Below, piece by piece: positions 37,415 to 63,134 of a stretch of DNA of 64,000 nucleotides. The notes under the pieces are model-generated. The model was not told the origin of the DNA, did no database searches, and saw nothing but the letters and a program-made list of their open reading frames with translations. The DNA is from Streptomyces sp. NBC_01353 (GTDB lineage: Bacteria > Actinomycetota > Actinomycetes > Streptomycetales > Streptomycetaceae). The position numbers were made by a program, and so were the translations under genes. The stretch lies in contig NZ_CP108352.1 of the NCBI RefSeq assembly GCF_036237275.1, positions 5,580,001 to 5,644,000 of the forward strand, read 5' to 3'. Within the stretch, counting starts at the first letter, position 1. Each line of letters begins with the position of its first letter.

Positions 37415-37481
37415 CCGGAACACGACGAGAGGAGGGGCGGGACGCTCGAAGCGTCCCGCCCCTCCTCTCGTCGTGTTCCGG
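37415..37481. terminator. 32-bp perfect hairpin between convergent SARP and WrbA-like genes
   Basis: The left arm 37415-37446 (starting CCGGAACACGACG) and right arm 37450-37481 (ending CGTCGTGTTCCGG) are fully complementary with a 3-base loop CGA. It lies 21 bases after the SARP stop and 37 bases beyond the stop of the convergent flavoprotein gene, so it can stop transcription from both sides. The arm length is unusual. Confidence 0.9.
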
Positions 37482-37518
37482 CGGACAGGCTGACCCTGCC
37501 CGGTCCCCGGGCTCACGG

Positions 37519-38136: not shown

Positions 38137-38267
38137 GACGGACCTGCTCCTTGGTGTGGGACTGGGGGCCGGGTACGGAACGGAAGGGCCCGTTCGCGAC
38201 TTTCTCCGAACGGGACGACGGGCTTCCACGCGGTCCGTGAAAGTCCGTCAAGTTCCGTACCCGGATG

Positions 38268-39134: not shown

Positions 39135-39172
39135 GTCTGTCTCCTGGATCAGATGTTCAGGCGTTCAGGTGC

Positions 39173-40048: not shown

Positions 40049-40178
40049 GGTGACCAACTCCCAGCTGTGATGCGGTCGGTACAGGCGGCGCGGGTGGGGC
40101 TTGGCGTACACATGCGTCCGCGGCGCCGCGCACGGCCGGAGGGCCGCGCGCGACGCCGCAGAGTGGTGAACGTGCAGG

Positions 40179-42035: not shown

Positions 42036-42079
42036 GGCGCCTCAGGTCCTTTCTCGAATGATCAGCGGGACGTACGGAG

Positions 42080-46689: not shown

Positions 46690-47862
46690 GTGGACAACAC
46701 TCTGCTCGACATCCGGCGAAGGCCGGCTCTGCAACAGCCCGTGTGGGACGACGCCTCGCAGGTGGAGCGCGTACGGGAGGAGCTGAGCGTCCGCCCCGCC
46801 CTGGTCAGCCCCCAGGATGTGCACACCCTGCGCACCCTGCTCGCCAGGGTCGCCGCGGGCGAGGCCGTGATCGTCCAGTCCGGCGACTGCTCCGAGGACC
46901 CCGACGAGTCCACCGCCCAGCACGTCGCCCGCAAGGCCGCCGTCCTCGACCTGCTCGCCGGCGCCATGAAGATGATCACGCACAAGCCGGTGATCCGGGT
47001 GGGCCGCATGGCCGGCCAGTTCGCCAAGCCGCGCTCCAACGACACCGAGAAGGTCGGCGAGCTCGAACTCCCCGTCTACCGCGGGCACATGGTCAACGGC
47101 CCCGAACCCGACGCGGAGTCCCGCCGTCCCGACCCGCTGCGCCTGCTCACCGGGTACATGGCCGCCAACGACATCATGGGCCACCTCGGCTGGCGCAAGC
47201 CCGTCGGCCGCCCGGCCATCGACCCGCCGGTCTGGACGAGCCACGAGGCACTGCTCCTCGACTACGAGGTGCCGATGCTCCGCCGCGACGACGAGGGCCG
47301 ACTGCTGCTCGCCTCCACCCACTTCCCGTGGATCGGCGAACGCACCCGCCAGACCGACGGCGCCCATGTCGCCCTGCTCGCCGAGGTCGTCAACCCGGTC
47401 GCCTGCAAGGTCGGGCCCAGCATGACCCCCGACGAGCTGCTCACCCTCTGCGAGATCCTCGACCCGGCCCGCGAGCCCGGCCGGCTCACCCTCATCGCCC
47501 GTATGGGCGCCGACAAGGTCGCCCAGAAGCTGCCGCAGCTCGTCGAGGCGGTCCGCGCCGCCGGCCACCCGGTGATCTGGCTGACCGACCCCATGCACGG
47601 CAACACCGTCACCGCCCCCGGGGGACTCAAGACCCGCTACACCACCACCGTCGAGCGGGAGATCTCCGAGTTCCAGCTCGCCGTGCGCTCCTCCGGCGGC
47701 ATCGCCGGCGGCGTCCACCTGGAGACCACCCCCGACGACGTCACCGAGTGCGTCCTCGGCGAGCAGTGGGTCGGCCGCTGCGGCGAGTACTACACCAGCT
47801 TCTGCGACCCGCGGCTCAACCCCGGGCAGGCCGTCACCGTCATCTCGGCCTGGCGCGCCTGA
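46690..47862 (+). CDS. Class II (plant-type) DAHP synthase, PhzC-like
   Basis: A 390-residue enzyme joining phosphoenolpyruvate and erythrose 4-phosphate, the first shikimate-pathway step. Family motifs are visible: VIVQSGDCSEDPDES (near 58-72), IRVGRMAGQFAKPRS (near 100-114), NPVACKVGPSMTP (near 237-249) and WLTDPMHGNT (near 297). The copy is shorter than primary-metabolism class II enzymes (about 450 residues), as in PhzC of phenazine clusters, where it boosts chorismate supply and escapes feedback control. The GTG has AGGAGAG upstream. It is the first gene of the 3-hydroxyanthranilate operon. Confidence 0.93.
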   Translation: MDNTLLDIRRRPALQQPVWDDASQVERVREELSVRPALVSPQDVHTLRTLLARVAAGEAVIVQSGDCSEDPDESTAQHVARKAAVLDLLAGAMKMITHKPVIRVGRMAGQFAKPRSNDTEKVGELELPVYRGHMVNGPEPDAESRRPDPLRLLTGYMAANDIMGHLGWRKPVGRPAIDPPVWTSHEALLLDYEVPMLRRDDEGRLLLASTHFPWIGERTRQTDGAHVALLAEVVNPVACKVGPSMTPDELLTLCEILDPAREPGRLTLIARMGADKVAQKLPQLVEAVRAAGHPVIWLTDPMHGNTVTAPGGLKTRYTTTVEREISEFQLAVRSSGGIAGGVHLETTPDDVTECVLGEQWVGRCGEYYTSFCDPRLNPGQAVTVISAWRA

Positions 47863-47908: not shown

Positions 47909-48679
47909 ATGCAGGACAAGATCGCCCTCGTCACCGGCGCCGCGGGCGGCATCGGCGCCGCGGTGGTCCGCGCGCTCGCCGAGCGCGGTGTGACCGTCGC
48001 CGCCGTCGACCGGGACGAGTCCACGCTGAAGCAGCGCGTCGCCGCCTTCGTCGTCGAGGGGCTGCCCGTCGAGGCCTTCCCCGCCGACGTCACCGACAGC
48101 GCCCAGGTCACCGCCCTGGTCGACGAGGCCGAGCGGCGCCTCGGCCCGATCGACTACCTCGTCAACGCGGCCGGCGTCCTGCGCCTCGGCCCCGTCCGCA
48201 CCTTCTCCGACGAGGACTGGGCGGCCACCTTCGCCGTCAACGCCACCGGCGTCTTCCAGGTCTCCCGCGCCGTCGTCGACCGGATGATCCCGCGCGGTTC
48301 CGGCGCCCTCGTCACCGTCGCCTCCAACGCGGCCAACACCCCGCGCACCGAGATGGCCGCGTACGCCGCCTCCAAGGCCGCGGCCTCCCTCTTCACCAAG
48401 TCGCTGGGGTTGGAGGTCGCGCCCTACGGCATCCGCTGCAACCTGGTCGCGCCCGGCTCCACGGACACCCCGATGCTCTCCTCGATGTGGCACGACGAGA
48501 CCGGGCCCCAGGGCACGATCGAGGGCCGCCCCGAGGCGTTCCGCGTCGGCATCCCGCTCAAGAAGCTGGCCCTGCCCACCGACATCGCCGAGGCCGTCGT
48601 CTTCCTCCTGTCGGACCAGGCGTCCCACATCACGCTGCACGACCTCACCGTCGACGGCGGCGCGTCCCTCGGCGTCTGA
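47909..48679 (+). CDS. SDR, probable 2,3-dihydro-3-hydroxyanthranilate dehydrogenase
   Basis: A 256-residue short-chain dehydrogenase close in form to 2,3-dihydro-2,3-dihydroxybenzoate dehydrogenases (EntA/DhbA): [16 protein letters not shown] (residues about 8-23), NAAGVLRLG (near 87) and [21 protein letters not shown] with Tyr-x3-Lys (near 150). Between a DAHP synthase and a PhzD-type isochorismatase, the expected substrate is trans-2,3-dihydro-3-hydroxyanthranilate, oxidised with NAD+ to 3-hydroxyanthranilate, as proposed in other actinomycete 3-HAA pathways. A siderophore DHBA role is unlikely because the isochorismatase is PhzD-like and no NRPS is present. Confidence 0.88.
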
Positions 48680-48726: not shown

Positions 48727-49350
48727 ATGGCCGGGATACCCCCCATCGAGGCCTATCCGTTGCCGACGGCCGGCGCCCTGCCGCCGGTCACCCCGCACTG
48801 GACCGTGGACCCGGACCGCGCCGTGCTGCTCGTCCACGACATGCAGCGCTACTTCCTGGCGCCGTTCCCCTCGCCGCTGCGCGAGGAGATCATCGCCAAC
48901 GCGGCCCTGCTCCGCGACCGTTGCGCGGCCCACGGCATCCCCGTCGCGTACACCGCCCAGCCCGGCGGCATGACCCCCGAACAGCGCGGTCTCCTCGCCG
49001 ACTTCTGGGGCCCCGGGATGCGCCTCGACCCCGCCGACCGCGAGATCGTCGAGCCGCTCGCGCCCGCCTCGGGCGACTGGCTGCTCACCAAGTGGCGCTA
49101 CAGCGCCTTCTTCAAGACGGACCTCCTTGAGCGGATGCGCTTCCACGGCCGCGACCAGCTGATCATCTGCGGGGTCTACGCCCACATCGGCGTGCTCGCC
49201 AGCGCCGTCGAGTCGTTCACCCACGACATCGAGACCTTCCTGGTCGCCGACGCCGTCGGCGACTTCACCGAGGCCGAGCACCGATCGGCCGTCGCGTACG
49301 CGGCCAAGCGCTGCGCCGTCGTCACCACCGCCAAGGAGGTGCTGGGGTGA
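48727..49350 (+). CDS. phzD: Isochorismatase, PhzD type (ADIC to DHHA)
   Basis: A 207-residue hydrolase of exactly PhzD length. It starts [16 protein letters not shown] and keeps the PhzD active-site residues at the same numbers: Asp38 (VHDMQRYF), Gln78 (YTAQPGG), Arg87 (EQRGLL) and Lys122 ([10 protein letters not shown]). The enzyme removes pyruvate from 2-amino-2-deoxyisochorismate to give trans-2,3-dihydro-3-hydroxyanthranilate. No aryl-carrier domain is attached. Its end overlaps the next gene in a GTGA junction. Without phzF, phzB and phzG, the DHHA formed here should go to 3-hydroxyanthranilate, not phenazine. Confidence 0.95.
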
Positions 49351-51248
49351 ACACACCGGCCCGTACCGACCTGCTGAGCCGGATCCTCGGCCCGAACCCG
49401 CCCGCCTTCGCCGTGCTGCACCGGCCCGAGACCACCGGACCCGGCGCACTCGACCTGCTGACCGGCGAGATCTCGCGGCCCGAGACCCTCGCCGACCTCC
49501 CGCTGCGCGAGGACGGACCGGGCACCGCGCGCCACGAGGTCCTCGCCGTCGTCCCGTACCGCCAGATCGGCGAGCGCGGCTACGACCGGACCGACGACGG
49601 CGCCCCGCTCATCGCGATGAGCGTCACCGAGCAGACCACCGTCCCGCTCGACACCGTCCTCGCCGCGATCCCCGACGTCCCGATCACCCTCGCCGACGGC
49701 AGCTTCGACGTCGACGACGAGGCGTACGCCGAGATCGTGCGCCGGGTCGTCGCCGACGAGATCGGCACCGGCGAGGGCGCCAACTTCGTCATCCGCCGCT
49801 CCTTCACCGTCGAGATCACCGACTACGGCCCCGGCAGCGCGCTGACCTTCTTCCGCCGGCTCCTGGAACGCGAGTCGGGCGCGTACTGGACCTTCCTCAT
49901 CCACACCGGGGACCGCACCTTCGTCGGTGCGTCCCCCGAGCGGCACGTCAGCCTCGCCGACGGCACCGCCGTCATGAACCCCATCAGCGGCACCTACCGT
50001 TATCCGGCCTCCGGCCCCACGCTCCCGGGCGTCCTCGAATTCCTCGCCGACCGCAAGGAGGCCGACGAGCTGTACATGGTCGTCGACGAGGAACTGAAGA
50101 TGATGGCCCGGATCTGTGAGGGCGGAGGCCGGATCGTCGGCCCGTACCTCAAGGAGATGGCCCGGCTCGCCCACACCGAGTACTTCATCGAGGGCCAGAC
50201 CGACCGCGACCCGCGCGAGATCCTGCGCGAGACGCTCTTCGCCCCGACGGTGACGGGCTCACCCCTGGAGAGCGCCTGCAAGGTGATCTCCAAGTACGAG
50301 CCCCACGGCCGGGGTTACTACAGCGGGATCGCCGCCCTCATCGGCCGCGACGCGCTCGGCGGCCGGGCCATGGACTCCGCCATCCTCATCCGCACCGCCG
50401 ACATCGACGCGGGCGGCCGGGTCTCCATCGGCGTCGGCGCGACCCTGGTGCGCCACTCCGACCCGGTGTCGGAGGTCGCCGAGACCCGCGCCAAGGCCGC
50501 CGGGCTGCTCTCCGCGCTCCAGGACGACGGAGGCTCCCGCTTCCGCGCCCACCCGCGCGTACGCGAGGCGCTGGAGCGGCGCAACGCCACCATCGCCGGC
50601 TTCTGGCTGGCGGAGGAGTCGGGCCGCGGCAGGCCCGATCCCGCCCTCGCCGGACAGCGCGTCCTGATCGTCGACGCCGAGGACACGTTCACCTCGATGA
50701 TCGGACAGCAAGTCCGTGCCATGGGGCCGGAAGTGACGGTCCGTCGCTTCGACGAGGAGTACGACTTCGACGGCTACGACCTCGTCATCATGGGCCCCGG
50801 CCCCGGTGATCCGCGCGAGGCCGGGCATCCCAAGATCGCGCATCTGCGGGAGGCCGTCGCCGGACTGCTGAGCGAGCGCCGGCCGTTCCTCGCGGTCTGC
50901 CTCAGCCACCAGGTCCTCAGCCTGCGCCTCGGCCTGGACCTCGCCCGCCGGGAGGTGCCCAACCAGGGCGTCCAGAAGGAGATCGACCTCTTCGGCGCGC
51001 GGGAACGCGTCGGCTTCTACAACACGTTCGCGGCGCGCTGCCACGAGGACGGCTTCCTGCACCCGGAGTTCGGTTCCGTGGAGGTCAGCCGGGACCCGGA
51101 GACCGGCGAGGTGCACGCCCTGCGCGGCACGGGCTTCGCGTCGATGCAGTTCCACGCCGAGTCGGTGCTCACCCAGAGCGGTCCGCGGATCGTCGCGTCG
51201 ATGCTGGGCGGCCTTGTGAAGAGCGGTGTGGTGCAGGCGCCGCGGTAA
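49347..51248 (+). CDS. phzE: 2-amino-2-deoxyisochorismate synthase, PhzE type
   Basis: A 633-residue fusion. Residues 1-410 are the chorismate-using anthranilate synthase component I-like domain ([60 protein letters not shown]). From about 430 to the end it is a glutaminase of the triad type ([12 protein letters not shown], nucleophile Cys in [15 protein letters not shown], and His-Glu in [13 protein letters not shown]). It makes ADIC from chorismate and glutamine without releasing pyruvate, as PhzE does. GTG start coupled to phzD. It converges on the nitrite operon, with a bidirectional terminator between them. Confidence 0.95.
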
Positions 51249-51347: not shown

Positions 51348-52460
51348 TCAGGGGCGCGCCGCGCCGACCTCGACCCGGCCGAGCAGGGTCCGTCCGTCCG
51401 GCGCCAGGACCAGCTTCCGGTAGCGGCCGCCGGCCCGGTCGGCCTCGCTGAACTCGATCGCGCCCTCGGTACGGGCGTGGATGTCGCCGAAGCCCGAGAC
51501 CCCGATGCCCAGCAGCTTGAGCCGCGTCGGCTGGCCGGTGTCCGTGAACGGCGTGTGGTCGAGGCCCAGGAGCTGTCGGGCCGCGGAGGCGGCCATCCGC
51601 AGGCCGGGGGCGACGAGCCCGTGGCAGCGGCCCTCGACGGCGGCGCACTCGCCGACCGCCCAGATCCGCTCGTCCGCGGTCCGCAGCCGGTCGTCGACGA
51701 GGAACCCGCCACGTTCGCCGGTCGCCAGACCCGCCCCCGCGGCGAGCTCGTCACGGGGCCGTATCCCGGCGGAGAAGACGACGAGGTCGGCCTCGATCTC
51801 CGTACCGTCCGCGAGCCGCACCCGGTCCGGCTCCACGGACGCCGTCGTCACCCCGCAGTGCACCTCGACACCGAGGTCCCGCACCAGCGTGCCGAGGAGC
51901 CGGCCGCCGCCCGCGTCCACCTGGAGCGGCATCAGGCGCGGGGCGGCCTCCACCACATGCGGGCGCATCCCGAGGTGCCGCAGCGCGTCGGCGGCCTCCA
52001 GGCCGAGCAGCCCGCCGCCGATGACGACACCGGGGCGGCCGGGGCGCGCGGCGGCGCGGATCGCGTCGATGTCCTCGACCGTCCGGTACGTGAAGCAGTG
52101 CGGCCGGTCGTGACCGGGGACGGGCGGTACGAACGGCCGGGACCCGGTGGCCAGGACCAGCGCGTCGTAGCCGAGGCGCGTCCCGTCGGCGCACCGCACG
52201 GTCCGCCGCTCCCGGTCGATGCCGGTCACGGTCGTCGAAAGACGCACGTCCACCAGGGAGTCGGGGGCGGGCAGCGCGAGATCGGCGGGCGTCGGGCCGG
52301 AGACGAGGGAGGAGAGCGCGACCCGGTCGTATGCCCCGCGCGGCTCCTCCCCGAGCACGACCACCCGCCATCCGTCGGTCCGGTCCAGGGTGCGCAGCTC
52401 CGTGACGAGCCGGTGCCCGACGGGCCCGTACCCGGCGACGACCAGCGTCCGGCGGCTCAT
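51348..52460 (-). CDS. NirB-like FAD/NAD(P)-binding protein without the sirohaem half
   Basis: A 370-residue protein equal to the N-terminal FAD/NAD domain of the nitrite reductase large subunit NirB: VVAGYGPVGHRLVTEL with the FAD fold, YDALVLATGSRPFVPPVPG, VVIGGGLLGLEAADALRHLG, IWAVGECA. NirB normally continues with a [2Fe-2S] region and a sirohaem/4Fe-4S catalytic domain to about 850 residues. Here the frame simply ends, with no remnant downstream before the terminator. Thus it can pass electrons but cannot reduce nitrite. ATGA overlap with the preceding gene. It may be a second electron donor to the nitrate reductase. Confidence 0.85.
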   Translation of the reverse strand: MSRRTLVVAGYGPVGHRLVTELRTLDRTDGWRVVVLGEEPRGAYDRVALSSLVSGPTPADLALPAPDSLVDVRLSTTVTGIDRERRTVRCADGTRLGYDALVLATGSRPFVPPVPGHDRPHCFTYRTVEDIDAIRAAARPGRPGVVIGGGLLGLEAADALRHLGMRPHVVEAAPRLMPLQVDAGGGRLLGTLVRDLGVEVHCGVTTASVEPDRVRLADGTEIEADLVVFSAGIRPRDELAAGAGLATGERGGFLVDDRLRTADERIWAVGECAAVEGRCHGLVAPGLRMAASAARQLLGLDHTPFTDTGQPTRLKLLGIGVSGFGDIHARTEGAIEFSEADRAGGRYRKLVLAPDGRTLLGRVEVGAARP

Positions 52461-53776
52461 GCGACGCCCTGCGGGACGCGGAGCGCGGCGCACACCGCGC
52501 GGACCGCGTCGGCACAGCCGCCGCAGCCGGTGGTGGCCCGGGTCGCCGCGGCGACCGCCCCGACGTCCCGCGCGCCGTCCTGCCAGGCCCGCACGACGGC
52601 CCCCTTGCTGACGTTGTTGCAGTGGCAGAGCACGGCCTCGTCGGCCAGGGTGGCGGGATCGGCTCCCGCGCCCCCGGCCCCCGCCCCGGCCCTGAGGCCG
52701 AGCAGGAGAGCGAGCCGGTCGGCGGGCACGGGGCGCCCCCCGTCGTACAACTGGCTGACGGCCGCGATCCCTTCGGGCATTCCGACCAGCACCGCCCGCA
52801 CCACCTTCTGTTCCGTGATCTCGATCCGCGCGTACCGCCCCCGAGCGGGGTCGGAGAACGTCACGACCTCGTCGCTCTCCGCCCACCCGCGGCGGCCCAG
52901 GCATACGACGTCCAGGCCCGGGACCCGTGGCCGGACGACCGGGGGAGCGGGGGTGTACGAGGCGTCGCCGCCCGTCAGGAGGGTGGCCAGGGTCTCCGCC
53001 TGGGCCAGCGCGCCCGAGAGGTCCGCGGCGCCCACGAGGTCCGGGGTGTCCGTGCACGCGCCGATCGCCCGGATCGAGGGGTCGCTCGTGCGCAGCCGGT
53101 CGTCGACGACGACGCCGCGGCGGACCGTCAGACCGGCCATCTCGGCCAGCGTGGTCTCCGGAGCGGTGCCGGTGCACCGCAGGACGGTGTCGGCGCCGAG
53201 CGTGTCGTCCGACGGAACGTACGCGCCCAGCCGCAGCTCGATCCCCCACGACTCGAGGCGCGAGGCGACCAACAGGCCGGAGACCTCGTCGAGTTGGTGG
53301 TGCATCGGGTACGGGCCGGGGTGTGCCAGGACCACGCGGTGGCCGCGCCTGCGCAGCGCCGTCGCCGTCTCCACGCCGAGGACGCCCCCGCCCACCACGG
53401 CCACCTTGCCGCGCACCGGGCGGGCGCAGTCGGCGAGGGTGTGCACATCGCCGGTCGGCCGCGCCCCGGTCGCCAGGACCAGCGTGTCGTAGTCGAGGCG
53501 TGTCCCGTCGGCGCACCGTACGGTCCGCCGCTCCCGGTCGATCGCGAGGGCCCGCAGGCCGGTCCGTACCCGTACCCCCGCCGGTGGCGGCGGCAGCGTC
53601 AGCGCGCCCGGCGGCAGGCCGCCGGCCAGGACCGAACCGAGCAGGGTGCGCTGGTACGCGGGGTGCGGCTCGTCGCCCAGGACGGTGACCGGGCCGTCGT
53701 GACCGAGCGCCGCGAGGCGGGCGGTCAGCCGGTGCGCGGCGAGGCCGTTGCCGACGACCAGGATCCGCCCGCTCAC
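52457..53776 (-). CDS. Assimilatory nitrate reductase electron-transfer subunit (NasB-like)
   Basis: A 439-residue FAD-dependent oxidoreductase. FAD and NAD(P) folds are at ILVVGNGLAAHRLTARL and KVAVVGGGVLGVETATALRRRG (near 142-162). At the C-terminus there is a BFD-like [2Fe-2S] domain, VLCHCNNVSKGAV with TTGCGGCADAVR (near 385-425, four Cys in a CxCx(n)CxxC array). This layout matches NasB/NasC-type partners that carry NADH electrons to NasA. GTG start in a GTGA overlap with nasA, and ATGA overlap with the NirB-like gene. The sirohaem domain is absent here too. Confidence 0.88.
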   Translation of the reverse strand: MSGRILVVGNGLAAHRLTARLAALGHDGPVTVLGDEPHPAYQRTLLGSVLAGGLPPGALTLPPPPAGVRVRTGLRALAIDRERRTVRCADGTRLDYDTLVLATGARPTGDVHTLADCARPVRGKVAVVGGGVLGVETATALRRRGHRVVLAHPGPYPMHHQLDEVSGLLVASRLESWGIELRLGAYVPSDDTLGADTVLRCTGTAPETTLAEMAGLTVRRGVVVDDRLRTSDPSIRAIGACTDTPDLVGAADLSGALAQAETLATLLTGGDASYTPAPPVVRPRVPGLDVVCLGRRGWAESDEVVTFSDPARGRYARIEITEQKVVRAVLVGMPEGIAAVSQLYDGGRPVPADRLALLLGLRAGAGAGGAGADPATLADEAVLCHCNNVSKGAVVRAWQDGARDVGAVAAATRATTGCGGCADAVRAVCAALRVPQGVA

Positions 53777-55905
53777 GCGGTCACCGGAGCGTGTACGACG
53801 TCCGCCGTGGCCGGCGGAGTCCGTACCGGCTCGACCCGTACCGCGCTCACCTTGAACTCCGGCATCCCGCTGCGCGGGTCGAGCGCCCCGCCGGTGAGCA
53901 GGTTCGCCCGGCCATCGCCCGGGAAGTGGAACGGCAGGAACACCGTGTCCGTCCGCAGGCTCTCCACCAGACGCACCCGCGCCACCACGGAGCCCCGCGC
54001 CGACACCACCCGGGCGAGCGCGCCCGCCTCGACGCCCGCTCGCCGGGCCGCGTCGGGGTGGATCTCCACGTACGGCTCCGGCTCCGCCTCGTTGAGGCGC
54101 CGTACCCGCCGGGTCTGCGCCCCGGACTGGTAGTGGGCCAGGACGCGGCCGGTCGTCGCGTACAACGGCAGTTCGGTGTCGGGAAGTTCGGCGGAGTCGC
54201 GGTGCTCGACCGGCTGGAAGCGGGCCCGCCCGTCCGGATGCGCGAAACCGTCCAGGAAGAGCCGGGGCGTGCCCGGATGCGCGGGCCCCGACGGCACCGC
54301 CGGGCACGGCCAGTGCAGCGCCTCGCCCGCGTCGAGCCGTTCGTAGCTCACCCCGGAGTAGTCCGCCCGGCCGCCCTCCGTCGCACGCCGCAGCTCCTCG
54401 AAGACCTCGCGCGGCCGGCCCGGATAGCGCTCGGCCGGCTCCCCGAGCCGTACCGCGAGCCCGCGCAGCACCTCCAGGTCGCTCCGTACTCCCGGCGGCG
54501 GATCGAGCAGCGCCCGCCGGCGCAGCACCCGCCCCTCCAGATTCGTCAACGTGCCCTCCTCCTCGGCCCATTGGGTCACCGGCAGGACGACATCCGCCAT
54601 CCGCGCGGTCTCGGAGGGGACGAAGTCCGCCACCACGAGCAGGTCGAGCGCGGCGAGCCGTTCGGCGACATGCCCGGCGTGCGGGGCGGAGACCACCGGG
54701 TTCGAGCCGAACACGAGCAGGGCGCGCGGACCGTGGGAGGTCCCCAGCGAGTCGAGGAGTTCGTACGCGCTGGGCCCCGGTCCGGGAAGGGAGGCGGCGT
54801 CCACGCCCCACACCCCGGCCACGTGCTCACGAGCCGCCGGGTCGGTGATCGTCCGGTAGCCGGGCAGCTGGTCCGCCTTCTGGCCCAGTTCGCGCCCGCC
54901 CTGCCCGTTGCCCTGGCCGGTCAGACAGCCGTAGCCGCTGCCCTCCCGTCCCGGGAGGCCCAGCGCGAGCGCCAGATTGACGAACGCGGAGACCGTGTCG
55001 GCGCCCTTGCTGTGCTGTTCGGCTCCCCGCCCCGTCAGGACGTAGGCCCGCCGGGCGTCGGCGAGCAGCCGCACCGCCTCCCGCTGGTCCGCGACCGGCA
55101 CCCCGGTCACCCGCTCGGTCCGCTCCGGCGTCCAGGGCAGCGCCCGCTGCCAGGCCGCCTCGAAACCGTTCGTCCGCTCCTGCACGAAGGCGTGGTCGAG
55201 CCGCCCGTCGAGCACCGCCAGATGCAACAGGCCGAGCGCCAGGGCGAGGTCGGTGCCGGGGGCCGGCCGCAGATGCAGCACGGCCCGCTCGGCGGTCGGG
55301 GTGCGGCGAGGGTCGAGGACGATCAGCTCGGCCCGGTCCAGATGGCGCATCAGCGGCGGCATCGTCTCGGCCGGGTTCGCCCCGGCGAGCAGCACCACGT
55401 CGGCGCGCCCGAGATCGGTGACCGGGAAGGGCAGGCCGCGGTCGACGCCGAAGGCGGCGTTGGAGGCGGCGGCGGCCGAGGACATGCAGAAACGGCCGTT
55501 GTAGTCGATCCGGCTGGTGCGCAGTGCGAGCCGGGCGAACTTGCCCAGCAGATACGCCTTCTCGTTGGTGAGGCCGCCGCCGCCGAAGACGCCGACCGCG
55601 TCCGGGCCGTGTTCCCGCCGGATGGCCCGCAGCCGCCCCGCGACCAGGTCGAGGGCGGCGTCCCAGCCGGCCGGGGCGAGCCGCCCGTCCCCGCCGCGCA
55701 CCAGCGGCTCCCGAAGCCGGTCGGCCACGGTCAGCACGTCCGGCGCGGTCCAGCCCTTCTGGCACAGACCGCCCTGGTTGACCGGGAAGGCCGACGGGGC
55801 GACGGACACCTCGCCGAGGGCGCGGCTGAGCTTCGTACCGCACTGCAACGCGCAGTACGGGCAGTGCGTATGGACGGTACGGGAGCCGGAACCGGGGTCA
55901 GACAC
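53773..55905 (-). CDS. nasA: Assimilatory nitrate reductase catalytic subunit
   Basis: A 710-residue cytoplasmic molybdopterin enzyme reducing nitrate to nitrite. The N-terminal 4Fe-4S cluster is held by Cys15, Cys18, Cys22 and Cys48 (HCPYCALQCG and GGLCQKGWT). The Mo-ligand Cys140 is in NGRFCMSSAA, and the segment GLTNEKAYLLGKFARLALRT is typical. A molydopterin dinucleotide-binding domain closes the protein (LPLYATTGRVLAHYQSGAQTRR). There is no C-terminal 2Fe-2S domain, so it needs the partner encoded next. GTG 55905 is preferred for GGAG six bases upstream; an in-frame GTG at 55917 also exists. It overlaps narK by eight bases. Confidence 0.93.
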   Translation of the reverse strand: MSDPGSGSRTVHTHCPYCALQCGTKLSRALGEVSVAPSAFPVNQGGLCQKGWTAPDVLTVADRLREPLVRGGDGRLAPAGWDAALDLVAGRLRAIRREHGPDAVGVFGGGGLTNEKAYLLGKFARLALRTSRIDYNGRFCMSSAAAASNAAFGVDRGLPFPVTDLGRADVVLLAGANPAETMPPLMRHLDRAELIVLDPRRTPTAERAVLHLRPAPGTDLALALGLLHLAVLDGRLDHAFVQERTNGFEAAWQRALPWTPERTERVTGVPVADQREAVRLLADARRAYVLTGRGAEQHSKGADTVSAFVNLALALGLPGREGSGYGCLTGQGNGQGGRELGQKADQLPGYRTITDPAAREHVAGVWGVDAASLPGPGPSAYELLDSLGTSHGPRALLVFGSNPVVSAPHAGHVAERLAALDLLVVADFVPSETARMADVVLPVTQWAEEEGTLTNLEGRVLRRRALLDPPPGVRSDLEVLRGLAVRLGEPAERYPGRPREVFEELRRATEGGRADYSGVSYERLDAGEALHWPCPAVPSGPAHPGTPRLFLDGFAHPDGRARFQPVEHRDSAELPDTELPLYATTGRVLAHYQSGAQTRRVRRLNEAEPEPYVEIHPDAARRAGVEAGALARVVSARGSVVARVRLVESLRTDTVFLPFHFPGDGRANLLTGGALDPRSGMPEFKVSAVRVEPVRTPPATADVVHAPVTA

Positions 55906-57304
55906 GAGTGACTCCACGGCGTACGGGCGGGGCCTCCAGCGGCCGGCGGGTGCGGGCGGCGGGGCGCAGATAGACCACCCAGGTGACCACCACGCACAGC
56001 GCGTAGAAGCCGAGGAAGGCGAGGAACGCGGGGGCGCCGCTGCCGCCCTCGGAGCCGTACGCCCCCCGGAAGGCCAGGTTCACCGCGACGCCGCCGAGCG
56101 CGCCGACGGCGCCCGCGATCCCGATCACGGCTCCCGAGAGGCGCCGGGCGCGGGCGAACGCCGCCGTGGCGTCCCCGCCGTCGGTGACCTCACGGCCGGC
56201 CTGCTCGGCGAAGACGGCCGGGATCATCTTGTACGTGGAGCCGTTGCCGATCCCGGTGAGCACGAACAGGATGGTGAAGCCGCCCACGAACAGCCCGAAC
56301 GACCCCCTCGCGGAGGCGAGGAGCAGCCCGCCGGTCCCGGCCGCCATCGCCACGAACGTCCACGCGGTCACCAGCGCCCCGCCCCAGCGGTCCGCGAGCC
56401 GCCCACCGAACGGGCGGGCGAACGACCCGAGCAGCGGGCCGAGGAACGTGTACGAGGCCGCTTCGAGCGGGCTGGAGCCGAACTGGGTCTGCAGGACCAG
56501 GCCGAAGGCGAAGCCGTACCCGATGAACGAGCCGAACGTGCCGATGTAGAGCAGCGAGATCCACCAGGTGTGCGGCGTGCGCAGGGCGTCGCGCTGGGAG
56601 CCCTTCTCACTCCGTACCGGCGCCAGGTTGTCCATCCGCAGCGCGGCGAGGAGTGCGACGGCGACGATCAGGGGGAGGTAGAACGCGGCGACGTAGGCGG
56701 GGTGGGTGTCGCCGGCGGTGGCGATCACGAGCAGGCCGAGGAGCTGGACGACGGCGACCCCGAGGTTGCCGCCGCCCGCGTTGAGCCCGAGGGCCCAGCC
56801 CTGGTGGCGCTGCGGGAAGAAGGCGGTGATGTTCGTCATGGAGGAGGCGAAGTTGCCGCCGCCGACTCCGCCGAGCGCGCCGATGACGAGGAACACCCAC
56901 AGGGGGGTGCCGGGCCGCTGCACGAAGTACGCGGCGGCGGAGGCGGGGACGAGCAGCACGGCGGTCGCGAACACGGTCCAGTTGCGGCCGCCGAAGCGGG
57001 TGACGGCATGGCTGTACGGGAGCCTCAGCACCGCGCCGACGAGAGTGGGGGTGACGACGAGGAGGAACTTCTCGCCGGGCGTGAACGGCAGCCCGATGCG
57101 CGGCGACATGAAGAGGACGAGGACCGACCACATGCTCCAGACGGAGAACCCGATGTGCTCGGAGGCGACGGACAGCACGAGATTCCGCCGCGCGATCCGC
57201 TTCCCCCGGGCCTCCCAGAACCGGACGTCCTCGGGGTCCCAGTCCTCGATCCACCGGGGGCGGGCGGATCGGGACCGGGACGTCGTGGGGCCGCCGGTGC
57301 TCAC
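55898..57304 (-). CDS. narK: NarK-type nitrate/nitrite transporter (MFS)
   Basis: A 468-residue 12-helix transporter. It carries both nitrate signature regions: GGVGGGNFASSMTNITAFFPQRHQGWALGLNAGGGN (near 135-170) and GIGNGSTYKMIPAVF (near 370), plus the pore arginines expected nearby. The start is GTG 57304 with GAAGGG six bases upstream, overlapping the lyase stop by four bases (GTGA). That coupling ties nitrate transport to nitrosuccinate chemistry. It may import nitrate for NasA or exchange nitrate for toxic nitrite. Confidence 0.93.
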   Translation of the reverse strand: MSTGGPTTSRSRSARPRWIEDWDPEDVRFWEARGKRIARRNLVLSVASEHIGFSVWSMWSVLVLFMSPRIGLPFTPGEKFLLVVTPTLVGAVLRLPYSHAVTRFGGRNWTVFATAVLLVPASAAAYFVQRPGTPLWVFLVIGALGGVGGGNFASSMTNITAFFPQRHQGWALGLNAGGGNLGVAVVQLLGLLVIATAGDTHPAYVAAFYLPLIVAVALLAALRMDNLAPVRSEKGSQRDALRTPHTWWISLLYIGTFGSFIGYGFAFGLVLQTQFGSSPLEAASYTFLGPLLGSFARPFGGRLADRWGGALVTAWTFVAMAAGTGGLLLASARGSFGLFVGGFTILFVLTGIGNGSTYKMIPAVFAEQAGREVTDGGDATAAFARARRLSGAVIGIAGAVGALGGVAVNLAFRGAYGSEGGSGAPAFLAFLGFYALCVVVTWVVYLRPAARTRRPLEAPPVRRGVTRV

Positions 57305-58845
57305 GACGCGCCCTTCAGGGCCCGGTCCACCAGGGGGCCCGCCGCGCCTGTGTAGGCCGCCGGGTCGCACAGCGCGTCGACCTCGGTCCGGTCCATGACG
57401 CCGGCGAGCTCCGGGGCGTCCGCGAGGACCTCCGGCAGCGGGCGCCCGTCCCGGTCCGCCGTCACCGACGCCCAGGTGAGCAGCTCCTTGGCGGCGGCCT
57501 TCCCGAGGCGGGGCGCGAGCACGGCCGCGATCCGCTCCGAGACGATCTGGCTGCCGGTGAGCGCGACGTTCTCCCGCATCCGCTCCCCCCGCACCTCCAG
57601 GCCCTCGACCAGCTCGACGGCCGTGTGCGCGGCGCCTCCGGTCAGCCGCAGGCACTCCCGCAGCAGCTGCCACTCGGCGTGCCAGACCCCGGCCGAACGC
57701 TCGTCCTCGGCGACGAGGCACTGCGCCAACGCGCCCGCGAGCGCGGGCACTTGCAGCGCGGCCGACCGGATGAGCGTGGCCAGCACCGGATTGCGCTTGT
57801 GCGGCATCGCCGACGACGCCCCGCGCCCGGCCCCGCCCGACGGCTCGGCGACCTCGCCGACCTCGGTCCGCGTCAGCGACTGCACATCGATCGCGACCTT
57901 CCCGAGCGCGCCGGTCGCGAACGCGAGCGCGAACGCCAGATCCGCGACAGGGGCCCGCAGCGCGTGCCACGGCACCAACGCGGGCTCCAGTCCGGTCTCC
58001 TCGGCGAACGCCTCGACGAGCCGATCGTGATACGCCCCGACGTCGAACCCGCCGAGCGGGCGGCCGTCCGGCACGATGCCGGTCACACCGGCATCGTCGG
58101 CCGGAACCCGGCCCGCCGCATCGGCGCCGTAGTCCGCCGCCGCGGCCGGGTCCGTCGTCGGGCCCTCGCCCGCCGCCGCGGCCGAATCTCGCGGGTCGTC
58201 GCCCGCCGCCAGCCGCGCGTACTCCAGGTACCCCGCCAGCGTTCCCGCCGCGCCGCCCAGGGAGACCGGGAGGGTCTCCTGGACGCGGGCCAGGCGGTCG
58301 TCGGCCGCGAGGAGCAGGGTGTGCCAGCCGGCGGCCTTGAGGCCGAAGGTGGTCGGGACCGCGTGGAGGGTCAGGGTGCGGCCGGCGATCAGGGTGTCGC
58401 GGTGGTGTTCCGCGAGGGCGGCCAGCGCCGTCGCCGTACGGGACAGGTCCGCGCGGATCAGCCGCAGCGCCCGGTCCGCGACCAGCATCGCGCCGGTGTC
58501 GAAGATGTCCTGGCTCGTCGAGCCCCGGTGGACGTACTCCGCCGCCGCCGGGTCCTCCGCCGCGACCACCCGCGTCAGCGCCTGCACCAGGCCGACGACC
58601 GGGTTCGCGGTCTCGCGGGCCGCGAGGGCCAGGGCGCGGACGTCCAGGCGCTCCGCGCGCGCCGCGTTGGAGACGGCCCGCGCCGCCCACTCCGGGACGG
58701 TGCCGAGCCGCGCCTGCGCCCGGACCAGCGCGGCCTCGGCGTCCAGCATGGCCTGCAGCCACGCCCGGTCGCCGACCGCCGCCTCCACGGGCGTTCCGGC
58801 CCGCACGGGCGAAAGGAGACCCGCGTCGTCGTAGGGCCGGGTCAC
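57301..58845 (-). CDS. creD: CreD-like nitrosuccinate lyase (fumarase/ASL superfamily)
   Basis: A 514-residue member of the adenylosuccinate lyase/fumarase superfamily, similar in outline to 3-carboxy-muconate cycloisomerases. The superfamily signature loop SSAMPHKRNP is present near 336-345 and REGSTSQDIFDT-like HRGSTSQDIFDTGAML near 106. In cremeomycin and fosfazinomycin clusters such proteins (CreD, FzmR) split nitrosuccinate to fumarate and nitrous acid. The call rests on its pairing with a CreE-like monooxygenase directly upstream; no beta-ketoadipate genes are nearby. GTG start in a duplicated 18-base segment. An insert of low conservation (about 215-260, Asp/Ala-rich) is odd. Confidence 0.85.
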   Translation of the reverse strand: MTRPYDDAGLLSPVRAGTPVEAAVGDRAWLQAMLDAEAALVRAQARLGTVPEWAARAVSNAARAERLDVRALALAARETANPVVGLVQALTRVVAAEDPAAAEYVHRGSTSQDIFDTGAMLVADRALRLIRADLSRTATALAALAEHHRDTLIAGRTLTLHAVPTTFGLKAAGWHTLLLAADDRLARVQETLPVSLGGAAGTLAGYLEYARLAAGDDPRDSAAAAGEGPTTDPAAAADYGADAAGRVPADDAGVTGIVPDGRPLGGFDVGAYHDRLVEAFAEETGLEPALVPWHALRAPVADLAFALAFATGALGKVAIDVQSLTRTEVGEVAEPSGGAGRGASSAMPHKRNPVLATLIRSAALQVPALAGALAQCLVAEDERSAGVWHAEWQLLRECLRLTGGAAHTAVELVEGLEVRGERMRENVALTGSQIVSERIAAVLAPRLGKAAAKELLTWASVTADRDGRPLPEVLADAPELAGVMDRTEVDALCDPAAYTGAAGPLVDRALKGAS

Positions 58846-58907
58846 ACGATCACCCCGGCGCGCCCGGTCGCCCCGTCCCGGCGCCCGCTCACACGATCAC
58901 CCCGGCG
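58843..58907 (-). repeat. 18-bp direct repeat at the creE-creD junction
   Basis: CACACGATCACCCCGGCG occurs at 58843-58860 and again at 58890-58907, 47 bases apart. One copy holds the end of the CreE-like gene, the other the start of the CreD-like gene. In each copy a GTG and a TGA overlap (GTGTGA on the minus strand). It looks as though an originally overlapping stop-start junction was duplicated, opening the only gap (43 bases) in this operon. Confidence 0.75.
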
Positions 58908-60910
58908 AACTCCGTCGTGGCCTCCTGCGTCACCGGCCGCACCCCCGCCGGCACAAGTGCCGTCGGCGGCAGCCCGCACAGCGCTCGCGCGATCGCGTCC
59001 GAGTCGCCGAGCGTCACCGAGTCGACGCCCGGCCGGATCCCCGCCGCGGTCACCCAGTGCACGGACTCCGTCGGCACCCCGTACGCGAACCGGCGCGGAT
59101 GCGGCCGGCCGCGGCCGTCCACCACCCGGTACGGCCGCTCGGTCACGGCCAGGCCCCCGGTCTCGTAACTCGTGCCGCAGGAACCGGGGATCCGGTAGGG
59201 CGCCGCCTGGTCGGTGTCGAGCAGGTGCAGCAGCAGCGGGTCCTGCGTGCGTCGTACGTCCGGCTCCGGCAGCCGCGCCTCGATCAGCACCGCCGCCCGT
59301 ACCGGCGGCCCCGGCACCGTGTCCGACGCGGCCACGAACGACGGCGCCGCCGCGTCGAGCCGGATCTGCGTGCCCGGACCGGTGACCTCCAGGACACCCG
59401 CCTCGATCAGCGCGATCATCTCCTCGATACGGGAGACGGGCGGGCCGATCGACAGGAAGCCGTTGAGCGGTGTGTACCAGCCCTCCAGGTCGTCCCGGTG
59501 CGAGTTGCCCTCCAGGCCGCCGTGGTCGACGGCGAGACGGACCTCGTTACGCAGGTCGCGCAGCACGTCGAGCGCCGCCTTGAGCGGGCCGTCCACATTG
59601 CCCGCCCGCGCCTCCACCACGTCCTGCTCCAGGTGGCCGAGCAGCCACGCCCGGAAGTCGTCCCGGCCGGTGAACTCCCGCTCCCCGTACGGTCGCGACA
59701 GCTTCTCCCAGTCCCAGCGGCGGGGCTCCTCGAAGCCGTACGAGGCCACCAGCGCCGCCCGGTCGGACTCCTCGGCCACGGCCAGGTAGCGGGTGGTGAA
59801 CCCCTCCCGCTCGGCGCCGCGCCCCAGGGAGTCCAGGAGCGTGCCGTAATAGACGCTCTCCACCTCCCGCGAGATCACCGGCCACAGGTCCTGCGCGAAG
59901 TTCACCCGCTCGCCGTCGACGTTCCGGGCCCGCAGCCGGGCGATGAACTCCGGGGTCAGCAGCTGCGGCAGATGCCGCCCGTACGCACCCTTCTGGTTCT
60001 CACCACGCGCGTGGTACGGCACCCCGCGCCGCGAGGACGCGAACAACTTCGGCTCCCGCCCCGACGCGCGGTACACCAGACGGCCGTCGCGCCGCTCGAA
60101 GACCCCGCCCCGCCCGGCCGTGAACAGCGCCATGTGGTCGAAGAAGTTGAGCCCGAGACCGCGCAGCAGCACGTGCTGGCCCGGCTCGATACCGCTCAGG
60201 TCCAGGTCCGCCGGGTTGGCGGGCGTGATGTAGCGCAGGTTGTGGATCCGGGCCAGGCTCGCCGTACGGGCCTCGCGGGCCGTCAGCCGGGCCGGCACAT
60301 GGCCCTGCGCGAGGACGACCCCGTCGAGGTGGTTGAGCCGGGTGCCGTCCTCGAGCCGCACGCCCTGCGGGCCGCCCGGCACCCCGTGGGTGTCGGCCAT
60401 CGCGACCGCCCGCGAACGGTGCACGCGCACCGTGATGTGACCGGGCGCGCGGGCCACCACCCGCTGGAAGGAGTCGTGCAGATACCGGCCGTAGAAGGCC
60501 CGTGAGGGGTACGAGTCCGGGCCGAGCCGGCGCGCTTCCTCCAGCGTCGCCTCGTCGTACCCTTCGGCGCCCGTGCTCTCCGCGCGCGCCCCGTCGTCGG
60601 TGAGCACGGCGAGCGCGGCGAGCTCCTGCGCCCACTCGTAGAGGCTGGGACCGGGCTCCACGGGGCCCTCGATCCGCGCGCTGTCGTCGGTGTACACGGT
60701 CACCTGCGAGGCGACCGTGTTCATCAGCAGATGCCGCGACTGCTCCGTGCGCCACACCGCACCGGCGCCCGGCGCGGCCGGGTCGACGACATGGAGGGTC
60801 AGGGTCCGGTGGGTGGGCGCGATCCGCTCGTTGGCGCAGATCCGCTCCAGGACCGACAGGCCGCGCGGCCCGGCCCCGACGATGCAGTACTCGGCGTGCG
60901 TGTCGTTCAT
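58889..60910 (-). CDS. creE: CreE-like flavin-dependent L-aspartate N-monooxygenase
   Basis: A 673-residue protein of the large FAD/NAD(P)-binding family (NAD_binding_9 type). The FAD loop GAGPRG is at 12-17, and DPAAPGAGAVWRTEQSRHLLMNT (near 43-65), VVLAQGHVPARLT (near 203) and GLGLNFFDHMALFT (near 245) are family blocks. CreE and FzmM oxidise L-aspartate to nitrosuccinate in the aspartate-nitrosuccinate pathway. The length (CreE is in the 600-residue range) and the directly following CreD-like lyase support this role. ATG start with GGGGAG upstream, overlapping the ligase stop by four bases. A related amine or tailoring monooxygenase is the alternative. Confidence 0.85.
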   Translation of the reverse strand: MNDTHAEYCIVGAGPRGLSVLERICANERIAPTHRTLTLHVVDPAAPGAGAVWRTEQSRHLLMNTVASQVTVYTDDSARIEGPVEPGPSLYEWAQELAALAVLTDDGARAESTGAEGYDEATLEEARRLGPDSYPSRAFYGRYLHDSFQRVVARAPGHITVRVHRSRAVAMADTHGVPGGPQGVRLEDGTRLNHLDGVVLAQGHVPARLTAREARTASLARIHNLRYITPANPADLDLSGIEPGQHVLLRGLGLNFFDHMALFTAGRGGVFERRDGRLVYRASGREPKLFASSRRGVPYHARGENQKGAYGRHLPQLLTPEFIARLRARNVDGERVNFAQDLWPVISREVESVYYGTLLDSLGRGAEREGFTTRYLAVAEESDRAALVASYGFEEPRRWDWEKLSRPYGEREFTGRDDFRAWLLGHLEQDVVEARAGNVDGPLKAALDVLRDLRNEVRLAVDHGGLEGNSHRDDLEGWYTPLNGFLSIGPPVSRIEEMIALIEAGVLEVTGPGTQIRLDAAAPSFVAASDTVPGPPVRAAVLIEARLPEPDVRRTQDPLLLHLLDTDQAAPYRIPGSCGTSYETGGLAVTERPYRVVDGRGRPHPRRFAYGVPTESVHWVTAAGIRPGVDSVTLGDSDAIARALCGLPPTALVPAGVRPVTQEATTEFAGVIV

Positions 60911-62496
60911 GCGTGCTCCCCAGCGGTCGGCGCGGCGCCGGCGGCGAGCAGCTTCGCCAGCTCGAGCCGCTTGATCTTGGTCGTGGCGGTCTGCGGCAGC
61001 TCGCGGAGCTGCCACTGGACCGGCTCCGCCATCGGCGGCAGCGTGGCGGCCGCAGCCTTCCAGGCCGCCGGGTCCAGCGGGCGGTCGTCCTTGGTGCACA
61101 CCACCGGGACGGCCCGGCCGTCGGTGCCGGGGATGATGATGACCTCTGCCAGCTCCGGCAGCTTCCCGAAGAGCGTGTCCTCGGCGGCGAGCGTGGAGCC
61201 GAAGCCCTCGATCAGGTCGACCTCCCGGTCGAGCAGGTGCACACAGCCCCACTTGGTGCGGTAGCCGACATCGCCCATCCGCCACCAGCCGTCCGCGGAC
61301 ACCTGCTGGTCGTACCGCTCCTGCTCGCCGAGGTAGGTGACGATCCGGCCGTCGCTGCGCACCTCGATGTAGCCCGGGTTCTCCGGCGAGGGCTCCTTGC
61401 CGTCGCGGCTCACCACCCGCACGTCCGTCATGCCCGGGAAGGGGCGGCCGACACAGCGTCCGTCGTCGTCGGGCGAGCGGCGCCGGGTGAAGGCGCGGAC
61501 CACGGCCGGGCCGACCTCACTCTGCCCGTACAGCTGGCCGAAGAGCGGCGCGCGCCGCTTCGTGGCGCGCAGCAGGGTGTGCACCGTCCGCGGGTGGATC
61601 GCGTCGAACGTGGAGGAGAACAGCTTCACGTTGGACAGCGGCCCGCGCGGGTCGCTCGCCAACTCCTCCCACTCCATGAAGGAGTTGGGGTGCGCCTCCA
61701 GGATGCCGGGCTTCAGCCGGGCGAACAGGTCGGCGGCCTGCTTGGCGTCCGGGTCGGCGAGTACGATGATCGGGAAGCCCCGGAAGAGGGAGATCGCGAG
61801 CGCGGTGAAGAGCCGCGAGTGCACGAACGACACATGCATCGCGATCGTCTCGCGGCCGCGGATCAGCGGCGCGACGGCGGAGATCTGCGGCCGGTAACGG
61901 GCCTGCAGCGTGTGGCCGGTGTGCACGGCCAGCTTCGGCGTGCCCGTCGTGCCCGAGGTGTGCGTGATCAGGGTCGGGTGCTCCGGCGGCATCGTCACGG
62001 CGGGAACCCGCGCCACGCCCGCGAGACCGGCGAGCTCCGTCGCGCCCTCGTGGCTGCCGGAGGCCAGCAGAACCTTCCCGGCAAGCTCGAAGACCTCCGG
62101 CGGCAGCTCCTTCTCCAGCTTCGCCGCGTCGGTCAGCAGGAACGGCCGGTCCGTGCGCCGCACCAGCTCCGCGGCGGTCGCGCCGTCCAGCTTCGGCGAC
62201 AGGAGCACCGGTACGGCCCCGATTCGGGCGATGGCGCAGGACAGCAGCGTGATGTCGAAGCCGTCGGACTTGTATACGACGACCCGCTCTCCGGGGCGCA
62301 CCTTCGCCGCCCACAGCCGGGACGCGAAGTCGTCGATCAGGTCGGCCATCTCCGCGACCGTCGTGCGTCGCCCCAGGTCGGGCGCGATGTCGAGGTCGTG
62401 GTCGAGGATCACCACGTTCGCCGGATGCCGGGACGCCGCTCGCTCGAACAGCGTGCCCAGCCGGATTCCACGGTTTCCAATGCGCTGCAGCAGCAT
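60907..62496 (-). CDS. AMP-forming adenylating enzyme, candidate CreM-like diazotase
   Basis: A 529-residue ANL-superfamily enzyme. Core motifs: THTSGTTGTPKLAVHT (near 176-191), YGQSEVGP (near 324), GWWRMGDVGY (near 402) and the C-terminal catalytic Lys in TTKIKRLEL (near 502). The usual hinge motif is altered to REVDLIEGFGSTL. No carrier domain or NRPS exists nearby. In the cremeomycin-type and related clusters, ANL enzymes beside CreD/CreE (CreM, AvaA6, CmaA6) use ATP to activate nitrite for diazotisation of an aromatic amine. An aryl-CoA ligase for 3-hydroxyanthranilate is the alternative. It is the first gene of the operon, with about 200 bases of control sequence upstream. Confidence 0.75.
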   Translation of the reverse strand: MLLQRIGNRGIRLGTLFERAASRHPANVVILDHDLDIAPDLGRRTTVAEMADLIDDFASRLWAAKVRPGERVVVYKSDGFDITLLSCAIARIGAVPVLLSPKLDGATAAELVRRTDRPFLLTDAAKLEKELPPEVFELAGKVLLASGSHEGATELAGLAGVARVPAVTMPPEHPTLITHTSGTTGTPKLAVHTGHTLQARYRPQISAVAPLIRGRETIAMHVSFVHSRLFTALAISLFRGFPIIVLADPDAKQAADLFARLKPGILEAHPNSFMEWEELASDPRGPLSNVKLFSSTFDAIHPRTVHTLLRATKRRAPLFGQLYGQSEVGPAVVRAFTRRRSPDDDGRCVGRPFPGMTDVRVVSRDGKEPSPENPGYIEVRSDGRIVTYLGEQERYDQQVSADGWWRMGDVGYRTKWGCVHLLDREVDLIEGFGSTLAAEDTLFGKLPELAEVIIIPGTDGRAVPVVCTKDDRPLDPAAWKAAAATLPPMAEPVQWQLRELPQTATTKIKRLELAKLLAAGAAPTAGEHA

Positions 62497-62693: not shown

Positions 62694-63134
62694 TCAAGGT
62701 ACGTCAAGTCCGGTGCCCAACTCCTGCGCGAAGTGGAGGGCCACGACGTTCATCCGCTGTGCGTGGTAGAAGCGTTGTGCGCCGTGGTTGACCGTCCCCG
62801 TGTCGAGTTCCATCCGTACGCAGCCGGCCCGTCGGCCCCGCTCCCGCAGTTCGTCGAGAAGGCGCGCGCCCACCCCGGCCGAGCGGGCGGCGGGATCGGT
62901 GACGAGGTCGTCGACGAAGAGCAAGCGGCCCCGGCTGGTGGCCAGTACGCGGTGCGAGGCCACGCCCAGGCAGCGGCCGGTGGTGTCGTGGGCGGCGGTG
63001 AAGACCAGGCCCTGGCGGTGGGCCGCCGTCGCGAACTCCAGGAAGCCGGCGACGTCCAGGCCGGGACGCAGAGCCCGGATCAGGGAGCCGACGTCGGTGC
63101 CGAACGAGGGGTCGTCCGGAGTGAGATCGGTCAT
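62694..63134 (-). CDS. GNAT family acetyltransferase
   Basis: A 146-residue GNAT protein: acetyl-CoA loop in FVDDLVTDPAARSAGVGARLLDELRERGRRAGC (residues about 75-108), then MELDTGTVNHGAQRFYHAQRM. The ATG at 63134 is used, as GGA lies seven bases upstream; an in-frame ATG at 63146 is possible. It lies upstream of the nitrite operon in the same orientation, with 197 bases between, so it may be separate. An amine or amino-acid substrate is likely but unknown. Confidence 0.8.
   Translation of the reverse strand: MTDLTPDDPSFGTDVGSLIRALRPGLDVAGFLEFATAAHRQGLVFTAAHDTTGRCLGVASHRVLATSRGRLLFVDDLVTDPAARSAGVGARLLDELRERGRRAGCVRMELDTGTVNHGAQRFYHAQRMNVVALHFAQELGTGLDVP

Follow-up and report, generated by a model that had tools for sequence, protein, structure and literature searches.

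Why should a single operon in a biosynthetic cluster carry two sets of genes that would each yield nitrite? The question arises from a stretch of 64,000 nucleotides (the window) of Streptomyces sp. NBC_01353, positions 5580001-5644000 of its contig in a genome of 8.57 Mb. Seven intact reading frames run on the minus strand between 51348 and 62496, in the order ligase, creE, creD, narK, nasA, nasB-like and nirB-N-like, the last encoding a truncated NirB. The genes, their order and their strand were those listed in the original prediction. We consider it likely that, in one operon of a diazo-type cluster, a single CreM-type ligase can draw its nitrite from two interchangeable sources, and the strain presumably uses both. 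CreE would oxidise L-aspartate to nitrosuccinate, and CreD would split this into nitrite and fumarate. NarK would take up nitrate, which NasA together with the NasB-like and NirB-like flavoproteins would reduce to nitrite with electrons from NAD(P)H. The nitrite would not be carried on to ammonium, because the NirB remnant is the FAD module only and the operon holds no NirD. With nitrite as the presumed product common to both routes, the ligase would diazotise an aromatic amine at the expense of ATP. This amine is probably 3-hydroxyanthranilate or one of its derivatives, supplied by a facing gene set.

Gene content of the operon

The junctions were as originally described (feature positions are given in Table 1). 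The ligase gene and creE overlapped by ATGA, creD and narK by GTGA, narK and nasA by 8 bases, nasA and nasB by GTGA, and nasB and nirB-N by ATGA. Only the second junction departed from this: creE and creD were separated by 43 bases, which included a repeated copy of the end of creE. In the two nearest relatives (L162 and L163; L numbers denote the loci compared) that end occurred once and the two genes overlapped by 4 bases; they overlapped in 16 of the 18 relatives with both modules. The late local duplication that had been proposed is thus a plausible origin of the gap.

We then assigned the aspartate route. CreD scored 774 bits on the nitrosuccinate lyase model NF052556, above its curated cut-off of 650, and at most 381 bits on muconate cycloisomerase models, under their cut-offs. 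The margin matters, since a control PcaB from a genus sample (L018) reached 570 bits on the lyase model. L018 was above the PcaB cut-off, L019 was above neither cut-off, and L016 and L017 also exceeded the lyase cut-off (658 and 659 bits) with 59-62% identity to the window CreD; these four strongest creD matches after the window's own enter none of the counts below. The true pcaB of the genome was located elsewhere, inside a pca operon. A muconate cycloisomerase was thereby ruled out, and the test set beforehand, whether CreD would group with such enzymes, came out in favor of a nitrosuccinate lyase. CreD residues ~210-270 form a low-complexity insert, which breaks its alignments with most homologues in two. 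For CreE, five residues are named around the bound aspartate in the L-aspartate N-hydroxylase structure 8cp2 (PMC10404684), and each of them (Arg13, Arg276, Asn413, Arg416 and Arg577) was matched by an identical residue in the alignment, counted by eye. Judged by sequence, CreD and CreE would belong to the aspartate-nitrosuccinate (ANS) pathway.

The first gene had been called an adenylating enzyme. An AMP-dependent ligase is indeed present, and its AMP-binding domain and adenylation motifs allowed us to refine it to a candidate CreM-type diazotase. The motifs THTSGTTGxPK and TATTKIKR were invariant across 14 aligned ligases including that of the window. On the NCBIfam AvaA6 diazotase model the ligase reached 79.6 bits against a cut-off of 975, and is therefore not an AvaA6 orthologue. 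It was 81% identical to the ligase of the S. halstedii locus L175, and its nearest named relative was from Streptomyces lateritius.

The nitrate cassette comprises narK, nasA, nasB-like and nirB-N. NasA had the domain make-up and the best family model of an assimilatory nitrate reductase NasA/NasC; since it scored 731 bits on the NasC model, below the cut-off of 1100, it was filed as NasA-like and not as a NasC equivalog. Its NGRFCMSS motif was the same in the housekeeping NasA. Formate dehydrogenase was rejected as an identity: the top solved-structure matches were formate dehydrogenases, but the formate dehydrogenase model reached 520 bits only, with NasC the best NCBIfam model, and the residue after the active-site Cys was Met in NasA versus His in two aligned formate dehydrogenases. 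The NirB-like protein aligned to residues 10-382 of the 846-residue housekeeping NirB, and a Pfam scan found Pyr_redox-type domains and no siroheme domain (NIR_SIR). No nirD was among the gene calls in or beside the operon, which therefore lacks the composition of a NirBD nitrite reductase. The truncation recurred, nirB-N coding for 374-421 amino acids in all 24 complete genes called across 32 nar-bearing loci of named genomes.

The genome has a separate set for nitrate assimilation. Its other nasA was 61-65% identical to that of the cassette, and this gene and a group of nasB-like, nirB and nirD-like genes lay 0.25-0.27 Mb away; NirB there retains NIR_SIR and the NirD-like protein is of Rieske type. 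In a tree of 33 NasA-type proteins, which omitted the L060 NasA as only a short piece of it was called, the 22 cassette-type proteins formed one clade with support of 100/99, apart from seven housekeeping NasA and from three operons (L149-L151) in which NirB matched over its full length, or ran off the contig end in L149, with siroheme domains shown for L151. The distinction between cassette and housekeeping NasA was thus borne out, and the other condition set beforehand, which concerned narK-nasA as genes independent of the cluster, did not come true either. A housekeeping nitrate operon was ruled out as the main reading by this separation and by the separate nasA and nirBD. Given that the siroheme half is missing from the NirB-like protein and that nasA and nirBD have separate copies, a cassette without the nitrite-consuming half should release nitrite instead of assimilating it.

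Recurrence and exchange of the two modules

Named genomes were scanned with the 14 aligned ligases, and presence of creE, creD, narK, nasA and nasB was scored by tblastn in 80 ligase loci, the best 80 of 200 confirmed stretches. All five genes were found in 18 loci, with nirB-N cut by or missing at the DNA end, or not called, in 8 of them. Another 24 carried creE and creD (creED) only, four of these (L174, L175, L176 and L232) having less than 1.5 kb of DNA after creD and one (L190) having creED upstream of the ligase. There were 14 loci with nasA and without creE or creD in the stretch examined. The ligase hosts included Streptomyces, Kitasatospora, Micromonospora and Actinokineospora. Overall nasA was present in 32 of the 80 loci. 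In 31 of these it followed the ligase on the same strand, whereas it was upstream in L233, and gaps of 1.4-1.5 kb occurred in L193 and L231. In the genus sample, nasA adjoined creD in 8 of 60 creD neighbourhoods, which came from the stronger creD matches and not from all. Among the 19 creD loci that had a ligase close by, nasA was present in 7, versus 1 of 41 others, the latter being the contig-cut L073, where a ligase would fall beyond the contig end. At least 11 loci were common to both samples, which are therefore not independent.

The combination of creED and nar genes is a recurring architecture and is not unique to the window. The search suggested in the original prediction, for creD followed by narK and nasA in other genomes, was answered by both samples, and its view that a chance neighbourhood is unlikely was strengthened by the joint recurrence of ligase, creE, creD, narK, nasA and nasB. 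On a quick ligase tree without bootstrap, the label 'both' required 11 changes, at least 7 on supported branches, and the label 'nar' required 9, at least 6 on supported branches. Protein distances co-varied across the 19 loci with both modules, window included (ligase-creE r 0.72, ligase-nasA r 0.63; 0 of 2000 permutations each), which fits linked inheritance and also shared species descent.

Two loci spoke to loss of one module. In L138, which carried the ligase and nar genes, creD was broken into three pieces and creE gave no match. L197 and L198 shared 86-90% DNA identity, and this similarity ended inside narK in L197, where creE and creD were present and nasA, nasB and nirB-N were not found beyond the narK stub. 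On the simplest view, a cluster that has both supplies may lose either one. The genomes of the nar-only loci L135, L137 and L138 had no creD match better than ~1e-63, 1e-65 and 1e-70, which is the level of pcaB (7e-67 for that of the window genome); the L144 genome, with a more distant ligase (54%), had a stronger creD match elsewhere. L143, L145 and L146 shared a cluster carrying the nitrate cassette, with domains in L145 of an adenylation enzyme, an acyl-CoA dehydrogenase, a thioesterase and an ornithine-cyclodeaminase-like protein. L089 encoded proteins of three of these families (adenylation, dehydrogenase and cyclodeaminase-like) and had creE and creD in the place of the cassette. We take this family to be alanosine-like, from its gene content and from the acyl-CoA dehydrogenase named in a review (PMC11705231), and it would show a similar exchange of nitrite supplies.

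Several results weigh against two linked, interchangeable supplies. The spacing between creD and narK exceeded 30 bases in 10 of the 18 relatives with both modules, and it is only among the closest kin of the window that overlaps make a strong case for one transcript. Neither supply was complete in 24 of the 80 ligase loci (22 with none; L170 and L235 with creE only; 5 of the 24 with less than 3 kb of DNA after the ligase), and a linked supply is therefore not obligatory. Among the 22 clade NasA, 11 had a nearby ligase match, 3 were alanosine-like, 1 was contig-cut (L073) and 7 had another or unclear setting (L136, L139-L142, L147 and L148); 11 thus lacked a linked ligase in the stretch examined, and several such genomes carry creED elsewhere. 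The nasA of L139, L141 and L142 lay among genes that were not cluster-like, as far as inspected. No creE or creD remnant was found in the 14 nasA-only named loci, and L197 (E 0.01) gave the only narK, nasA or nirB-N remnant in the 24 creED-only loci, so the decay argument rests on two loci. In one of the 18 loci with both modules (S. toxytricini L173, the same as L060) nasA was read in two frames, which could reflect a damaged gene or a fault of assembly. NasA, NarK and the ligase all scored under curated cut-offs, and the distance correlations partly reflect shared species ancestry.

Some members of the cassette clade had surroundings of their own. L139, L141 and L142 carried nasA-nasB-nirB-N with no narK, ligase or creED match in the stretch examined, their genomes having creED elsewhere (L069, L087 and L076), and an MMPL-looking gene, named by eye, was upstream in L139 and L141. 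L136 had narK-nasA-nasB-nirB-N near an adenylation enzyme and a small carrier-looking protein with no creED nearby, which may point to a third cluster type that makes use of the cassette. A search for an NGRFCM-type motif found no match in the NasA of L147 and L148. Two creED loci, L048 (at 16190) and L050 (at 14652), had a distant NarK-like gene (45-46%) on the opposite strand and no nasA match; this gene is possibly a nitrite transporter of its own.

Competing explanations and known systems

We weighed three other explanations. The nitrite from NasA might be reduced further by a partner to nitric oxide as the nitrosating agent, with aspartate-derived nitrite feeding the same step. We regard this as improbable. 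The multicopper oxidase beside the cluster was counted in its favor, as its broad family also holds copper nitrite reductases; this protein, however, fitted CueO and PhsA best among NCBIfam models, under both cut-offs. Moreover, a Pfam scan of the seven operon proteins turned up no nitrite reductase domain of the heme, copper or siroheme type, and the cluster carries a ligase of the CreM type, a kind reported to use nitrite (PMC13061610, PMC11429834).

That an ordinary assimilatory nitrate operon came to adjoin the ANS genes by chance is less probable again. NarK, NasA and NasB are typical assimilation proteins, the full-NirB operons L149-L151 branch beside the cassette clade, and nasA-nasB-nirB-N occurs in L139, L141 and L142 away from any nearby ligase or creED. 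The cassette nevertheless lacks the siroheme half of NirB and NirD, for which housekeeping copies exist elsewhere, and chance would not readily account for the position of nasA downstream of the ligase on the same strand in nearly all of the 32 loci. The weakest proposal, that NarK is mainly a nitrite exporter in a module protecting against CreD nitrite, with the reductases serving redox balance, could draw on the ability of NarK-family proteins to move nitrite and on the two creED loci with only a NarK-like gene nearby, but NasA adds nitrite instead of removing it and 14 loci have nasA without creED, which makes it the most doubtful of all.

Known systems offered partial parallels to a double nitrite supply. 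The penzonemycin (pzm) cluster of Streptomyces sp. SCSIO 40020 (PMC9323291) shares with the window a 3-hydroxyanthranilate set, CreD, CreE, a CreM-like ligase (Pzm18, 48% identical to CreM in the published table), a quinone reductase, a 180-residue SRPBCC protein and an N-acetyltransferase. Unlike the window, it has no NarK, NasA, NasB or NirB in its gene table. It also has an acetolactate synthase (pzm16) and a second acyl-CoA ligase, neither of which turned up in the genes scanned from the window and from L015, a scan that covered part of the window genes. The window thus has the penzonemycin-type combination of a 3-hydroxyanthranilate set with CreD, CreE, ligase, quinone reductase and SRPBCC protein, and its product is probably related to penzonemycin but, because the acetolactate synthase was not seen among the scanned genes, probably not the same.

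The cremeomycin ANS pathway (CreE, CreD and CreM) likewise runs from aspartate through nitrite to ATP-dependent diazotisation; it uses a different aromatic amine (3,4-AHBA type), and no nitrate module is described in the portions available. For kinamycin, 15N-nitrate labels the diazo group in the producer, and in the kinamycin and SF2415A3 producers nitrate nitrogen reaches the diazo group as proposed here, whereas kinamycin is labelled at its proximal nitrogen, by another route, and the available text names no dedicated cluster-borne nitrate reductase (PMC6133997). For alanosine, the distal nitrogen may derive from the ANS pathway or from nitrate/nitrite reductases, and clusters without ANS genes are cited (review PMC11705231); such reductases are called possibly non-dedicated (preprint PMC12154649). 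A reductase-fed supply of nitrogen oxide thus has a precedent in alanosine, where the aspartate route and the reductases are presented as alternatives, as proposed here. The alanosine product is a diazeniumdiolate and not a diazo compound, and the available accounts do not present the two supplies in one operon with a CreM-type ligase, unlike the window. Wang and Ryan 2023 is reportedly the source behind the alanosine clusters without ANS genes. The nitrate operons L149-L151 share with the window the narK-nasA-nasB order, a NirB gene and a related NasA; the L151 NirB keeps the siroheme half, unlike that of the window, so its nitrite should go to ammonium. A full-text search, which covered few subscription papers, brought up no account of a diazo operon with both supplies.

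Cluster surroundings and the meaning of a double supply

The plus-strand genes facing the operon should make 3-hydroxyanthranilate. We take the isochorismatase to be PhzD-like and the chorismate-binding/amidotransferase fusion to be PhzE-like. A set of the same type (DAHP synthase, DhbA, isochorismatase and chorismate-binding protein) was proposed for 3-hydroxyanthranilate in the penzonemycin paper (PMC9323291). SRPBCC homologues lay immediately upstream of the ligase in most relatives. The quinone-reductase-like gene was called across the window end into L015, and its 327-residue protein belonged to one family with a zinc-type quinone oxidoreductase of L045. To the left of the cluster, 32465-43741 holds an AfsA-type gene, a BTAD regulator, a flavodoxin-like reductase, an arylamine N-acetyltransferase, an aquaporin-like channel, an asparagine synthetase and a carboxylesterase, which may be part of it. 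A 3-hydroxybenzoate 6-monooxygenase-like flavoprotein gene (under cut-off; 12364-13542 in L052) adjoined the ligase in 11 genus loci and not in the window, usually sitting between ligase and creE.

Table 1. Predicted features of the operon and of the genes around it in the window
Feature	Position	Strand	Evidence
SRPBCC-family protein, 180 residues	44030..44572	+	Pfam Polyketide_cyc2
Multicopper oxidase, possible tailoring enzyme	44997..46436	+	Pfam Cu-oxidase domains
Class II DAHP synthase, 3-hydroxyanthranilate set	46741..47862	+	Pfam DAHP_synth_2 417 bits
DhbA-type dehydrogenase, 3-hydroxyanthranilate set	47909..48679	+	TIGR04316 358 bits (cut-off 300)
Isochorismatase	48727..49350	+	Pfam Isochorismatase
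Chorismate-binding/glutamine amidotransferase fusion	49347..51248	+	Pfam Chorismate_bind, GATase
nirB-N, truncated NirB, FAD module only	51348..52460	-	TIGR02374 nirB 385 bits, profile 1-373 of 794
nasB-like flavoprotein with BFD [2Fe-2S] domain	52457..53776	-	Pfam Pyr_redox_2, Fer2_BFD
nasA, molybdopterin nitrate reductase catalytic subunit	53773..55905 or start 55917	-	Molybdopterin and 4Fe-4S domains
narK, nitrate/nitrite transporter of the major facilitator superfamily	55898..57304	-	TIGR00886 280 bits (cut-off 311.7); NarU-type model 305 bits (cut-off 836)
creD homologue, nitrosuccinate lyase	57301..58845	-	NF052556 774 bits; PDB 5xny CreD E 1.6e-169; signature SSAMPHKRNP
creE homologue, L-aspartate N-hydroxylase/nitrosuccinate synthase	58889..60910	-	PDB 8cp2 E 3e-203; Pfam NAD_binding_9
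CreM-like AMP-dependent ligase, diazotase candidate, first gene of the operon	60907..62496	-	Pfam AMP-binding 142 bits
GNAT acetyltransferase, upstream of ligase	62694..63134	-	Pfam Acetyltransf_1
Quinone-reductase-like gene start, 327 residues	63247..64000	+	Gene call crossing the window end into L015

Together, these results bore out the original prediction for the genes and, within the reach of comparative evidence, for their logic. CreE-type enzymes require O2 (PMC10404684) and nitrate reduction does not, so the two supplies could cover different oxygen and nitrate conditions. More tentatively, at somewhat less than even chances, the nitrite supply may be exchangeable across nitrogen-nitrogen (N-N) clusters: the siroheme-less cassette, akin to the assimilatory narK-nasA-nasB-nirB genes, would come and go in exchange for the aspartate route, and where both persist they would act as an oxygen/nitrate switch. 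Since the nitrate module stands without creE and creD in 14 of the 80 ligase loci, within the stretch examined, finding clusters by creE and creD alone would appear to miss members. The origin of the second nitrogen in diazo compounds becomes testable, and the nitrogen cycle would feed specialised metabolism through dedicated genes. Adding nitrate and limiting oxygen may offer a handle for waking silent diazo clusters.

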